Source: Herpetosiphon giganteus (GTDB lineage: Bacteria > Chloroflexota > Chloroflexia > Chloroflexales > Herpetosiphonaceae). From it: a stretch of DNA of 64,000 nucleotides. The DNA is taken from the NCBI RefSeq assembly GCF_016907925.1, contig NZ_JAFBCZ010000002.1:124001-188000 (forward strand). Reading direction: 5' to 3'. Positions 5,300 through 58,861 of the stretch are shown in pieces. The notes beneath the pieces were generated by a model that was not told where the DNA came from, ran no database searches, and was given only the letters and a program-made list of their open reading frames with translations. Position numbers and translations under genes: made by a program. The first letter of the stretch is position 1, and every line of letters starts with the position of its first letter.

Positions 5300-5386
5300 A
5301 TTTCACCTTCGTGATAGCATTGCGTTTTAGTCTACCACGGATAGATCAACGACTTTTGCTAAAGTTATCGTAGTAGATTGGCAAAG

Positions 5387-5509
5387 CCCCTCACCCCAAC
5401 CCCTCTCCCGCCCAGCAGGCGAGGGGCTTTTGAATACTGTGGTTCTTCTGCAATACGTGGTAAGCCACAAGTGCTCCCCCTCGCCCGCGTTCAGTGGGAG
5501 AGGGGGCTA
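5387..5509. repeat. GC-rich dispersed element, copy 1 (right end truncated)
   Basis: Starts CCCCTCACCCCAACCCC, contains an inner hairpin ending GAGGGGCTTTT and a right hairpin CCCCCTCGCCCGCG...GGGAGAGGGGG, but lacks the outer GGTGAGGG end of full copies. It lies 12 bp from copy 2 in the same orientation, so the 405-bp gap between the HEAT gene and the deacetylase gene is almost entirely repeat DNA. Confidence 0.85.
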
Positions 5510-5521
5510 GATTGTTAAGAT

Positions 5522-5654
5522 CCCCTCACCCCAACCCCTCTCCCGCCCAGCAGGCGAGGGGCTTTAACACCGTGGTTCTTGCGCGAATTGCGGTGAACAA
5601 TGGCGGCTCCCCCTCGCCCGCGTTTTCGTGGGAGAGGGGGCTGGGGGGTGAGGG
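5522..5654. repeat. GC-rich dispersed element, copy 2 (complete)
   Basis: A complete 133-bp copy. The outer ends CCCCTCACCCC and GGGGTGAGGG are inverted repeats. Each half contains its own hairpin (CCCCTCTCCCG...GAGGGG, then CCCCCTCGCCCGCG...GGGAGAGGGGG). The conserved core between them resembles TTTAACACCGTGGTTCTT. Other copies are at 5387, 25848, 30706, 42808, 53899 and 58498. Confidence 0.9.
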
Positions 5655-5657
5655 CTT

Positions 5658-5700
5658 ACATCCCCGATCCCTGAATCCTGACCCCTAGCCCCTGATCCCT
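5658..5700. repeat. CCCCTGATCCCTGA-type quasi-tandem repeat
   Basis: Degenerate 7-8-bp words (ATCCCTGA, CCCCTAGC, CCCCTGA) run up to four bases from the stop codon of the minus-strand deacetylase gene. The same word family is at 23105-23150, 31957-32090 and 55505-55686. Confidence 0.7.
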
Positions 5701-22967: not shown

Positions 22968-23152
22968 GATCCACGAAGGACACGAAGGACACGAAGGACG
23001 GAAACCGCGAAGCACGCGAAGAGCGCGAAGGCTAAGTTTTAGCCACAGATTGGCACAGATTTGCTCAGATTAATTTCTCGCCAAATAGCCCATCGCCTAG
23101 CACCTCGTCCCTGATCCCCGACCCCTAGCCCCTGAACCTCAACTCCTATGTT
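22968..23152. repeat. Block of quasi-tandem intergenic repeats
   Basis: The gap between polA and the VOC gene is about 310 bp. It holds CACGAAGGA units (22973-23000), CGCGAAGAG-like units, a TTTTAGCCACAGATTGGCACAGATT phrase split over 23036-23062, and CCCCTGA/CCCCTAG words to 23140. All recur elsewhere in the window. The left 125 bp (22842-22967) holds only the polA upstream region. Confidence 0.8.
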
Positions 23153-25834: not shown

Positions 25835-25847
25835 AGGTTTGGTGTCG

Positions 25848-25978
25848 CCTCAGCCCAACCCCTCGCCCGCTGAGCGGGCGAGGGGCTTTTTGTATTCTAG
25901 TTTTATCAATGATTTTTGGTTCTCCAATCATACACCCCTCGCCCGCGTTCAGTGGGCGAGGGGGTTGGAGGGTGAGGG
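25848..25978. repeat. GC-rich dispersed element, copy 3
   Basis: A degenerate full copy with a CCTCAGCCCAACCCC left end and a GGGGGTTGGAGGGTGAGGG right end. Its core differs from other copies, but both inner hairpins are kept. It lies 14 bases after the stop of the golvesin-like gene. Confidence 0.85.
25859..25891 (+). terminator. Terminator provided by the GC-rich element
   Basis: A perfect 12-bp stem (CCCCTCGCCCGC / GCGGGCGAGGGG) with loop TGA is followed by CTTTTT. It is the left half of repeat copy 3 and should end transcription of the golvesin-like gene. Confidence 0.85.
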
Positions 25979-30695: not shown

Positions 30696-30705
30696 ATGTA
30701 GAGAT

Positions 30706-30898
30706 CCCCTCACCCCAACCCCTCTCCCGTCCAACGGGCGAGGGGCTTTAACGCGCTGGTTCTCCCGCAATTCCTTGGCGAAACATGGTCGGCTCCCCCT
30801 CGCCCGCGTTTTCGTGGGAGAGGGGGTTGGGGGTGAGGGGACGATTAACAGCTCCCCCTCGCCCGCGTTTTCGTGGGAGAGGGGGTTGGGGGTGAGGG
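30706..30898. repeat. GC-rich dispersed element, copy 4, with duplicated right half
   Basis: A complete 135-bp copy (30706-30840) is followed by a second copy of only its right half (30852-30898, CTCCCCCTCGCCCGCG through GGGTGAGGG). The block fills the gap between two convergent genes and ends seven bases from the stop of the amidase gene. Confidence 0.9.
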
Positions 30899-30905
30899 AT
30901 TGTTG

Positions 30906-38244: not shown

Positions 38245-38327
38245 AAATCCTCATCACTTAACATTCTATTGAGCTTGGGTCTTAAGTATTGGCTAATAAT
38301 AATCCACAAAATAGTTATTAGGGGGTA

Positions 38328-38386
38328 CAGGGTGATGAAAACCCCCTGTGTTTCCCGCCTTGAGGCAGGACGGAAGGGTGGTGAAA
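38328..38386 (+). repeat. Two-hairpin structured repeat, copy A
   Basis: Begins TTAGGGGGT and ends ACGGAAGGG with a short tail. Hairpin 1 pairs ACAGGG with CCCTGT; hairpin 2 pairs TCCCGCC with GGCAGGA (one mismatch). Copy B at 46917-46977 has the same order with compensatory base changes. Confidence 0.75.
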
Positions 38387-38485
38387 ACTCGTGAGCCAAG
38401 CCGATAATTCATGATTCTACGTGTGGATTATGCAGCTACTTCTGCCTTAACTGACGAAAGCAGAAGTAGCTCAAACCTTAATTTT

Positions 38486-40020: not shown

Positions 40021-40443
40021 TGATCCACGAAGGACACGAAGAGCACGAAGGGCTGTAACCGCGAAGGACGCGAAGAGCCGTTTTTTCGCCACGAATTGCA
40101 CGAATTCCACGAAGAATATTCCGATAGCCCAAAGCTATAAAGTTTTTAGCCACAGATTGCACAGATTATTGTGATTCTGTTCCTCTTAGCCCAAAGCCTA
40201 TAGCCCATAGCCATCGGTTCCTCTGCCCCTCTGCATTAAGAATTTGATCCACGAAGAACACGAAGAGCACGAAGGGCTATAACCGCGAAGAACACGAAGA
40301 ACACGAAGGTTTCTATTTCCAAAGCCTTACGCTTCATCCCTCATCCCTCATCTTCATCCTTCGCTACTCTGCGCCGCTGCGTTAAATCCTAATCCCTTAT
40401 CATGAGCCTTCATCCCTCATCCCTCATCCCTCATCCTTCATCC
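40021..40443. repeat. Large block of degenerate tandem repeats
   Basis: The 455-bp gap between the Bax1-like and XPB genes is almost all repeats: CACGAAG(A/G)(A/G) units at 40027-40080 and 40250-40310, AGCCACAGATTGCACAGATT near 40150, AGCCCATAGCC words near 40190, CTCTGCNCCTCTGC phrases near 40205 and 40370, and five TTCATCC/CTCATCC heptamers at 40409-40443 that touch the XPB stop codon. No gene is seen. Confidence 0.85.
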
Positions 40444-41769
40444 TTAACTATTGCTCTGCTGATTATGCGCGGCCACGGCTTTTTTGCGGCGGCGCGCGGT
40501 TTGAACTTCGCTTGTATTGCGGGTAACCAACTCGTAGAGCAAGGCTTCATCAGGCTTTTTGCGCAAGACCCGCCCCAAGCGTTGAATATATTCGCGAGCA
40601 GTGGCCGAACCGCTGACCACAATTGCCACGTTGGCATCGGGCACATCAACGCCCTCGTTCAGCACCCGCCCCGTGACCAACTTAGAATAGCGTCCAGACC
40701 GAAAGCCATCCAAAATTGCCTTGCGTTCGTCGGCTGCCGTGCGATAGGTAATGCTGGGGATGGCAAACTGACGACTGATGGTGTTGACCAAGGCGTTGTA
40801 TTCAGAAAAGATAATGACTTTATCGTTGGGATGTTGGCTGAGCAATTGGCCAACATGTTCAAGCTTTTTCTCGGCGTTGAGCGCAATCATGCGCGCTTGA
40901 TGCTGCGCTTGTAAGGCATTGCGGGCTTGAGGATCGCTACCAGAGCGCCGAATTAGCTCGCCAAAGAAATCACCACCGCTAGCCAATTTATGCCGATGCT
41001 TGGCCAAAAACCAGCGCCATGTAGTCATCAAGGTTTCATAGCGCACCAATTCATCGGCGGTTAGATCGACCAAAATGCGTTTTTCGCGGAACTTGGCAAT
41101 ATGGCCTTCTTCGGCCAAATCGTTGGGTGCGCGTCGATAGACGACCTTGCCAACCAAGCGGTCGAGTGCTGAATGCGAGCCATCGCTACGTTCGGGCGTT
41201 GCAGTCAAACCCAAGCGATAGGGTGTGCGGCTACGCAAGGCAATTGTGCTATAGGCAGGTGAAGGCAAATGATGCACTTCATCACAAATTAGCAAGCCCA
41301 AATTCTCAAGTGGCGCATCGGGCATGGCTGCCGAAGCATAGGTGATGACGGTGATTGGCCGCCATTCGCGCTGGCCATCGCCAACTACGCCGACAAATTT
41401 GGGATCGAGCGCCAAGGTTTGGATCACGGTGTCGCGCCATTGGTAGAGCAATTCAATCGTGGGCACGACGATCAGCGTGCGCAGACCTAACTTGGCAATT
41501 GCCAACATTGCGGTGATCGTTTTGCCAGCGCCGGTTGGCAGCACAATCACCCCACGCCCTTCGTTGGCTGTCCAAGCTGCGACAGCCTCGGTTTGATAGG
41601 GGCGCGGGGCAAATTGCAATTTGGCTTTGAATCCGCCCTGCAAACTGGCATCAACTTCTGGCAAATCCTCATCTGGTTCGTCAAGCAGGCTTGCATCAAG
41701 CAAACTTGCCTCGTCGAGCAGCCATTCTTCTTGGGCTGGCTGCTCGGCTTGGGTGGCAGTTCGGGTCAT
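40444..41769 (-). CDS. XPB-type DEAD/DEAH superfamily 2 helicase
   Basis: A 441-residue SF2 helicase of the XPB/Rad25 type. After an acidic N-terminus (LLDASLLDEPDEDLPEVD) come the Q-like motif RPYQTEAVAAW, motif I LPTGAGKT, motif Ia VVPTIELLYQWRDTV, motif II CDEVHHLP, motif III LTATPER, and the C-terminal RecA domain with IIFSEYN, RVLNEGVDVPDA and QRLGRVLRKK. XPB opens DNA in nucleotide excision repair. ATG 41769 has GGAGG four bases upstream. It starts eight bases after the HhH gene and precedes the Bax1-like gene, making an archaeal-like XPB/Bax1 arrangement. Confidence 0.9.
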   Translation of the reverse strand: MTRTATQAEQPAQEEWLLDEASLLDASLLDEPDEDLPEVDASLQGGFKAKLQFAPRPYQTEAVAAWTANEGRGVIVLPTGAGKTITAMLAIAKLGLRTLIVVPTIELLYQWRDTVIQTLALDPKFVGVVGDGQREWRPITVITYASAAMPDAPLENLGLLICDEVHHLPSPAYSTIALRSRTPYRLGLTATPERSDGSHSALDRLVGKVVYRRAPNDLAEEGHIAKFREKRILVDLTADELVRYETLMTTWRWFLAKHRHKLASGGDFFGELIRRSGSDPQARNALQAQHQARMIALNAEKKLEHVGQLLSQHPNDKVIIFSEYNALVNTISRQFAIPSITYRTAADERKAILDGFRSGRYSKLVTGRVLNEGVDVPDANVAIVVSGSATAREYIQRLGRVLRKKPDEALLYELVTRNTSEVQTARRRKKAVAAHNQQSNS

Positions 41770-42730: not shown

Positions 42731-42807
42731 CGACCGTTCCTTTCATGAATCAAATTCATTTTTTGCAACGTCGCCGATTGTACCAGAACATGCCTTGGTT
42801 GTAAGAA

Positions 42808-42999
42808 CCCCTCACCCTAACCCCTCGCCCGTCCTACGGGCGAGAGGCTTTTCATGGTGTGCCTCTTGGACAATTCGTTGGGCAACAAGGTCGGCTCCCC
42901 CTCGCCCGCGTTTTCGTGGGAGAGGGGGCCGGGGGGTGAGGGAATGTTTGACCACCACGCTTTTTTAAAAACCTACCCTTGAAAGGCTGGGGGGTGAGG
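42808..42999. repeat. GC-rich dispersed element, copy 5, plus a right-end fragment
   Basis: A complete copy at 42808-42942 is followed by a further fragment of the right end (GGCTGGGGGGTGAGGGC, about 42983-42999) that stops six bases before the NB-ARC gene stop codon. It fills the gap between the 78-residue gene and the NB-ARC gene. Confidence 0.88.
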
Positions 43000-46723: not shown

Positions 46724-46850
46724 GAGCTAGTACGCTAGTGCCAAAGTACTATTTTTAACCGTAGTTTAACGGGTTAAGGCAGCAGAAATCAAAAGTCAAA
46801 AACACCGGTGGCTAAACAATCGGTATTTGTAGAACAAGGGTTGGGTAAGG

Positions 46851-46880
46851 AACCGCGAAGGACACGAAGAGCACGAAGGG
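46851..46880. repeat. CACGAAG quasi-tandem repeat
   Basis: ACCGCGAAGGACACGAAGAGCACGAAG units, the same word family as at 22968 and 40027. The region 46724-46850 shows nothing else. Confidence 0.65.
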
Positions 46881-46916
46881 GAAATAGAAACATACACACA
46901 ATCCAGCAGATAAACA

Positions 46917-46977
46917 TTAGGGGGTGCTGGGGGATGAAAACCCCCGGCGTTTCCCTCCAGCGGAGGGACGGAAGGGA
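46917..46977 (+). repeat. Two-hairpin structured repeat, copy B
   Basis: Same architecture as 38328-38386. Hairpin 1 pairs GCTGGGGG with CCCCCGGC around loop ATGAAAA; hairpin 2 pairs TCCCTCC with GGAGGGA around AGC; then ACGGAAGGG. The stems differ in bases from copy A but keep pairing. Confidence 0.75.
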
Positions 46978-47061
46978 GGATGAAGGATGAAGGATGAAGG
47001 ATGAAGGATGAAGGATGAAGGATGAGGGATGAAGGATGAGGGATGAGGGATGAGGGATGAA
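46978..47061. repeat. Twelve-unit GGATGAA/GGATGAG heptamer array
   Basis: Twelve exact-length 7-bp units, eight GGATGAA and four GGATGAG, with no indels. It directly follows structured repeat copy B. The remaining 47062-47261 region holds TTCGTGGAATTCGTGCAATTCGTGG-type words and no gene. Confidence 0.9.
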
Positions 47062-47261
47062 GTCAAAAAGTATAAGGCTATGGGCTATTAGAACTTAATT
47101 CGTGGAATTCGTGCAATTCGTGGCTAAAAAATAGCCTTCGTGGGCTAGTGGCTACGATTGGGCCAAAAATTGCGCGCAAAATATTTAGACAGCGCTAGCA
47201 AGATTTGATACTATCCCAGTTAGCGACCAAATCGCAGCCCTGTACCTATCCATATGTCAAC

Positions 47262-53828: not shown

Positions 53829-53898
53829 TGTAACTACCTCGCATGCTGAATCTTCGCTATCAAGTAGTTGTATTGGTTCATTGGATTAGCAACCGTGT

Positions 53899-54032
53899 CC
53901 CCTCACCCCCCAGCCCCCTCTCCCACGAAAACGCGGGCGAGGGGGAGCATCCATTTTCACCACGTAGTGCGGGTAGAACCACGCGATTAAAGCCCCTCTC
54001 CCGCTCCGTGGGAGAGGGGTTGGGGTGAGGGG
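53899..54032. repeat. GC-rich dispersed element, copy 6 (inverted)
   Basis: A complete copy in the opposite orientation to the others, in the 348-bp gap between divergent genes. The rest of the gap (54033-54137) holds nothing recognisable. Confidence 0.88.
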
Positions 54033-54137
54033 ATCAGGCGGTGGTTAACCTGATTACCAGTAGTACAAGTAGTAGCATGCTTGGCTTTGCAGCAACATCC
54101 CTCCGAAGGCTGATTTGCTGCTAGCTGGGTTATTTTA

Positions 54138-58337: not shown

Positions 58338-58497
58338 TCTGTTCTCCTACACATGTGGCACGCTTGTGCAACGATGCACACCCGCCTTGTCATTATAATT
58401 CAATTCATGGCCAATCGGCGAGCCAGAATATGTATTCTGATGGTGTAGAATGCTAGCCAATAACTGTACTGGTACATGCGGTTAACCACTGCTTGAT

Positions 58498-58627
58498 CCC
58501 CTCACCCCAACCCCGCTCCCGTGCGCGGGCGAGGGGCTTTAATCGTGCGGTTCTGTCGCGATGCGTGATACAAAACGACGGCTCCACTCGCCTGCGTTCA
58601 GTGGGAGAGGGGGTTGGGGGGTGAGGG
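58498..58627. repeat. GC-rich dispersed element, copy 7
   Basis: A complete copy with several substitutions (CCCGCTCCCGTGCGCGGGCGAGGGGCTTT), in the 574-bp gap between the divergent M32 gene and the small membrane protein gene. Confidence 0.88.
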
Positions 58628-58861
58628 AAGATGATTGCCAATCCAATGGATCAATACACATAGCTGCATGGCAAAAGCACTGGTGTGCGGGCAAAATGCC
58701 TTTGTTTGCACTGCAAGGCCAAACGTGCTGATGGGCCAAATGTATGAGTAGCTCTGGTACTATCTGGGGGAGCGAATCCAACCCCTTTGCGTGGCATATA
58801 TCCCTAGGTAACCCATAAATAAAGTCCTATAGTCCTGTTATTTCTAGTTGCACGAACTGAC
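58628..58861. other. Intergenic stretch without recognised features
   Basis: About 230 bp between repeat copy 7 and the dyad at 58862. I see no gene, RNA or clear promoter here; the same holds for 58338-58497. Confidence 0.5.

Follow-up and report, generated by a model that had tools for sequence, protein, structure and literature searches.

The window, the whole 64,000-nucleotide stretch of Herpetosiphon giganteus DNA that was analysed, carries two copies of an element built from two successive hairpins, P1 and P2, and direct inspection of the sequence confirmed that both lie where the initial annotation had placed them (38328-38386 and 46917-46977; parts in Table 1). The compensatory changes cited there are genuine; they comprise A-T to T.G and A-T to G-C in P1, and G-C to T-A in P2. 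Each stem of copy 1 contains a single mismatch. Neither is present in the orthologue of the congener G004, where the positions of T38333 and A38367 are both occupied by G, indicating that the window copy is decaying. Inverted ends are absent from both window copies; a 10-bp inverted pair flanking copy 1 (ATAATCCACA/TGTGGATTAT) was dropped as a candidate for its ends, other copies of the same type having no such pair. A heptamer tandem array of GGATGAA/GGATGAG adjoins copy 2 downstream (46977-47062), with an inverted counterpart at 40407-40445.

Table 1. The two copies, their parts and surroundings, in window coordinates.
Feature	Position	Strand	Details
Intergenic gap around copy 1	38245..38485	.	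contents vary between congeners
Copy 1 upstream block TAATCCACAAAATAGTTATTA	38300..38320	+	matches type A leader (AACAATCCAC..AAATATTA)
Copy 1 conserved core (G-run, P1, P2, GGAAGGGTGG)	38321..38381	+	model hit G000:C2:162303-162381
Copy 1 hairpin P1	38326..38350	+	arms 38326-38334 / 38342-38350; loop ATGAAAA; mismatch T38333 x C38343
Copy 1 hairpin P2	38353..38370	+	arms 38353-38359 / 38364-38370; loop TTGA; mismatch C38356 x A38367
CACGAAG-type repeat immediately upstream of copy 2	46850..46881	+	
Copy 2 type A leader GGGGAAATAGAAACATACACACAATCCAGCAGATAAACATTA	46878..46919	+	
Copy 2 conserved core	46920..46979	+	model hit G000:C2:170902-170979
Copy 2 hairpin P1	46925..46949	+	arms 46925-46933 / 46941-46949; loop ATGAAAA
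Copy 2 hairpin P2	46952..46968	+	arms 46952-46958 / 46962-46968; loop AGC

Extent and base pairing of the family

A covariance model trained on 47 copies was used to search the genome and its relatives, as the initial annotation had proposed, and revealed a dispersed family restricted to Herpetosiphonaceae. The annotation had named a lack of more copies in any genome as evidence against its reading; further copies are plentiful, with at least 150 matches in the H. giganteus genome (G000) alone, all at E <= 3e-8, and 18 copies on one 336-kb contig, a count that is complete for that contig. The exact pattern GATGAAAACCCCC occurs 56 times in the same 6.16-Mb genome, and the reversed pattern not once. 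With the model, 36 to at least 116 copies were found in each of five Herpetosiphon congeners, 48 in one other genus of the family, and 0 and 1 in two more; 32 genomes of the same order gave marginal matches only (E about 0.006-0.007). The exact pattern was also found in at least 77 stretches of GTDB species genomes, and among the matches listed all belong to Herpetosiphon or to a Herpetosiphonaceae MAG; the repeat is essentially absent outside this family. The plasmids of PLSDB contained zero matches to the element, and nothing in Rfam exceeded its gathering cut-off at the element, the best weak bacterial match being Clostridiales-2 (21.8 bits against a cut-off of 58.6). No description of the repeat was found in the Herpetosiphon literature searched, which comprised papers available without subscription.

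The conserved core, P1 plus P2, spans ~62 bp and follows the consensus GGGGGTGCAGGGGG-ATGAAAA-CCCCCTGC-GTYTCCC-(TCC.GGC.GGA or GCC.TTGA.GGC)-GGGACGGAAGGGTGG. Across the 16 pairs of P1 and P2, 98.8% of cells were paired in 115 distinct aligned copies, so that the broken stems which the initial annotation had named as evidence against its structure were not the rule; when the pairing partner was slid along the alignment, pairing fell to 49-57%. Cells with double changes numbered 77, as against 24.6 +- 2.9 after column shuffling (0 of 500 shuffles), although this shuffle leaves the relatedness among copies in place; the direct evidence of covariation therefore comes from swaps in both stems, namely T-A/G-C in P2 (48 versus 62 sequences), and A-T/T-G/T-A/C-G and G-C/A-T in P1. 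Two copies alone were insufficient to establish the covariation initially proposed, whereas the 115-copy family does so, and copy number and covariation together rule out a chance origin of the motif. Conserved base pairing, one of the attributes expected of a functional non-coding RNA, is accordingly present in the family.

In about nine alignment rows, with differing P2 types, the leading G-run and the two P1 arms are together reduced in length from 5 to 4, which points to an additional interaction of the leading run with the C-run; copies with the run and arms at 4 include L140, L141, L142, L143 and L179. Pairing of the leading run with YCCC at the start of P2 is also possible and gives P1 an alternative, longer form, a stem that is nearly perfect in copy L044. 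On the + strand, G.T cells outnumber A.C cells by 33 to 8, which gives only a hint of strand asymmetry since two positions account for 24 of the 33.

Full-length units and their movement

In its full form, found in H. aurantiacus and elsewhere, the core lies inside units of 171-193 bp, with a few longer variants, bounded by 16-bp terminal inverted repeats (CTTACAAGGGTAGGTT...AACCTACCCTTGTAAG). One 16-bp end is followed by an inner hairpin (GAACCAC...GTGGTTC), then by P1 and P2 and then by the motif GGAAGGGTGG, and the opposite end completes the unit. With at most one mismatch allowed, G001 contains 147 CTTACAAGGGTAGGTT ends (control, 0). When CTTACAAGGGTAGGTT-end units were defined by their ends alone, 7 of 24 were flanked by perfect 11-bp direct repeats, compared with 2 of 552 in a cross-pair control; the perfect 11-bp duplications are GTCAGGGGGTG, ATGGTGGCTAG, GAGGGGGTCAG, GCTAGGGGGTG, GAGAGGGGATG and GTTGGGGGGTG. 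Three units (L332, L333 and L337) are nearly identical, indicating recent movement, and several CTTACAAGGGTAGGTT-end units are nested inside CCCTCACCCC repeats. Folded as single-stranded DNA, a typical full unit takes the form of three main hairpins closed by an end stem (z = -5.9); GGAAGGGTGG resembles the inner end motif, and in RNAalifold its pairing partner is the right end.

A second end type, TGTAYTGGTTCATTG, bounds a 226-bp core-bearing unit in G004, which is flanked by a 6-bp duplication. Such ends number 92 in the H. giganteus genome, at three mismatches or fewer over a 25-base pattern, and most of them enclose a different hairpin interior, CCCTCACCCC. The G004 unit defines a clean empty site 1.2 kb from the site of copy 1: the unit is absent in G000 and G001, and GTTACA, which stands twice around it in G004, stands once in the G000 empty site. 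The gap that holds copy 1 is itself variable, being nearly empty in G003 (about 18 nt from stop to start), carrying the element inverted in both G001 and G002, and a different hairpin repeat in G005. The initial annotation had raised the possibility of a mobile hairpin; filled and empty sites and target duplications bear out the mobility, but the demonstrated mover is the larger unit of 171-226 bp that contains the hairpins. Tandem repeats of GGCTATTGGCTAT often flank TGTA-type units.

Two forms of the repeat can be distinguished, and the core, common to both, is the part that the covariance model detects. Type B has inverted ends or their remains. Type A, the commoner form, includes both window copies and over half of those in the H. 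giganteus genome, most copies of which have no inverted ends; it has the leader GGGGAATAG.AAC..CAACAATCCAC..AAATATTA, occurs in head-to-tail arrays and shows no recognisable inverted ends. CACGAAG repeats lie within 200 bp of about 65 of 118 copies; in the window, repeats of this type (CCGCGAAGAACACGAAGAGCACGAAG) occupy 22968-23033, 40022-40117, 40246-40311 and 46850-46881, often just upstream of type A. Direct repeats flanking type A copies were rejected as target duplications of that form, since tandem arrays and CACGAAG repeats account for most of the excess; single cases in L040 (17 bp) and L008 (11 bp) are possible exceptions. The window copies are best read as descendants or relatives of the same core, set in mosaic intergenic repeats. 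In one head-to-tail array (G000:C2:267384-267799), copy number is 3, 2 and 1 across G000, G004 and G001, and the cores of G000 and G004 are near-identical, the pattern expected of unequal crossing-over or gene conversion.

Conservation among spreading units and decay after insertion

Among 13 core-bearing units defined by their ends, the core showed a pairwise identity of 0.928 and the ends one of 0.91-0.93, as against 0.72-0.74 for the remaining interior; the set was drawn with a loose core filter, includes the degenerate unit L316, and has ends conserved in part because the search required them. Among spreading lineages the core is thus as well conserved as the ends. Because some sets were chosen by pattern and are biased towards intact cores, divergence was estimated from the collinear contig and from stand-alone pairs. 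Among the stand-alone copies, seven orthologous pairs (L040-L290, L006-L081, L158-L285, L178-L279, L092-L110, L093-L110 and L100-L117) differed at 20 of 384 positions in the core and at 58 of 1536 in the flanks (hand-summed). Stand-alone copies, copy 1 of the window included, decay neutrally after insertion; the structure that the initial annotation described as kept is kept at the level of the family, whereas individual stand-alone orthologues diverge like their flanks and lose pairs. Constraint at individual loci, a further attribute of a functional non-coding RNA, is lacking in the stand-alone orthologous copies, and for these an RNA function exerted site by site is unsupported. Type A copies in mosaic repeats form an exception: three orthologous pairs with rearranged flanks, taken from a collinear region, differed at 1 of 171 core positions; selection, gene conversion or recent replacement could each produce such near-identity.

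Nature of the repeat

We consider it likely that this element forms the conserved core of a MITE-like mobile repeat that is non-autonomous, genus-specific and high in copy number. Bacterial MITEs, of which Correia/NEMIS and RUP are examples, are short, non-coding, intergenic foldback sequences present in many copies, with terminal inverted repeats and duplications of constant length, and the Herpetosiphon repeat resembles them in all of these; its full-length forms possess terminal inverted repeats, a constant-length duplication, and filled and empty orthologous sites. A cut-and-paste transposase, supplied in trans, would recognise the full unit by its inverted ends, and this putative enzyme would generate the 11-bp target duplications; the core, folded on its + strand or by way of the end-like motif GGAAGGGTGG, may aid mobilisation, a role that would allow only lineages with an intact core to go on spreading. 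Transposase loci of the families PF01609, PF00872 and PF00665 were surveyed, and none of the 26 DDE_Tnp_1 and 5 Transposase_mut loci of G001, nor of the 11 rve loci of G001/G000, proved to be an autonomous partner with the same ends. Two long-range end pairs (L239, 2.7 kb; L252, 1.7 kb) enclose ordinary genes and were discarded.

Unlike MITEs, for which an autonomous partner is expected, the Herpetosiphon repeat has none among the loci examined, and its two-hairpin core covaries, is as conserved as the ends, and occurs with two end types or, mostly, with none. One core with two kinds of ends, and also without ends, exceeds what a plain MITE model predicts, and we count the lack of inverted ends in the window copies and in most H. 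giganteus copies, the untraced partner and the near-unchanged type A orthologues against the MITE-like reading. There is a modest chance that spread of the repeat depends on the internal folded two-hairpin module, which, as RNA or as single-stranded DNA, would be a portable mobilisation structure that travels with different ends or with none, and would replace an ordinary MITE interior. The interiors of MITEs are usually regarded as filler; here an interior module matches the ends in conservation, keeps its pairs and recurs with two end types, and structure-aided spread, of DNA or RNA, becomes directly testable within one cultured genus. The family also explains many odd hairpins of Herpetosiphon intergenic DNA and provides markers of insertion history. 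It is nonetheless a MITE/REP-like repeat and not a new kind of genetic system.

The strong covariation, the highly conserved loops and linkers, the invariant basal T.G pair of P1 and the G.T excess described above, most of it from two positions, would also be expected of a host structured RNA or a cis-regulatory RNA that acts at each site (in mRNA stability, termination or regulator binding) and was multiplied by duplication. Gene contexts, derived from an ORF heuristic rather than from annotation, are in keeping with such an RNA: 15 of the 18 contig copies lie outside ORFs of at least 120 aa, on a contig scored as 86% coding, the other three falling in one apparently spurious array ORF, and the + strand agrees weakly with flanking co-directional genes, by 25 to 11. 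We nevertheless regard a host RNA as unlikely, since stand-alone orthologues change at the rate of their flanks and lose pairs, one intergenic gap is filled, empty or reversed among sister species, every orientation relative to neighbouring genes occurs, and no match was found in Rfam. The structured RNA suggested by the initial annotation thus retains a small probability and gained no direct support, nothing in Rfam exceeding its cut-off.

Quite improbable, in our view, is a core that takes no part in movement and is preserved as an insertion-sequence target or recombined as a passenger between MITEs. In H. aurantiacus, 2 of 4 copies of an insertion sequence with a 447-aa transposase and a ~15-bp duplication (GCAGGGGGATGAACC) lie inside P1 of the core, and all 13 copies of another, with a 421-aa transposase and duplications of about 8 bp, lie in the CCCTCTCCC hairpin of the CCCTCACCCC repeat; moreover, two unrelated inverted-end types have the same two interiors. 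Target status alone, however, would not conserve a sequence with compensatory changes, and the core is conserved to the same extent as the ends. The H. aurantiacus loci with these insertions are L356-L368, L350 and L351.

Very improbable is a palindrome of the REP/BIME type whose single-stranded DNA form is mobilised by a RAYT (TnpA-REP) or by a TnpA of IS200/IS605, for although copy number and intergenic position are alike, the hairpins hint at strand asymmetry and six of eight relatives have one or two Y1_Tnp genes each, the copy-rich H. giganteus and G005 genomes have none, the element is absent within about 1.5 kb of the relatives' Y1 genes, the GTAG tag is missing, and target duplications surround the full-length forms. 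To our knowledge, HUH single-strand transposition makes no target duplications. The lack of a Y1 (HUH) gene in the H. giganteus genome, and of the element beside the Y1 genes of relatives, likewise argues against membership among RAYT-mobilised REPs. High-copy intergenic hairpins that serve as insertion-sequence targets are shared with REP/BIME; the core differs from these in its length of about 62 nt, its two different hairpins, its head-to-tail clusters and the absence of a GTAG tag and of a genomic RAYT. Di Nocera et al. 2013 described GTAG and CGTC super-families of REPs, the latter with an unpaired CGTC tag, an 8-9-bp stem starting with A/T and a CCA tail (PMC3733652). Membership of the CGTC group was rejected, as the minus-strand CGTC overlaps the P2 stem (TCCCGCC/GGCGGGA), which is G/C-rich and 7 bp long, at variance with the rules for tag and stem.

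The BOX and RUP elements of Streptococcus pneumoniae are likewise small interspersed repeats with more than one family in a single genome, of apparently different sequence and in another host (PMC3049150). A second dispersed hairpin repeat (CCCTCACCCCAACCCCTCTCCC...) is present in the window at 5378-5698, 25837-25978, 30697-30899, 42799-42942, 53869-54050 and 58480-58658; many of its copies lie within TGTAYTGGTTCATTG ends with 6-bp duplications, and in H. aurantiacus it is found with CTTACAAGGGTAGGTT ends also, so that two interiors, the double-hairpin core and this second repeat, combine with two end types.
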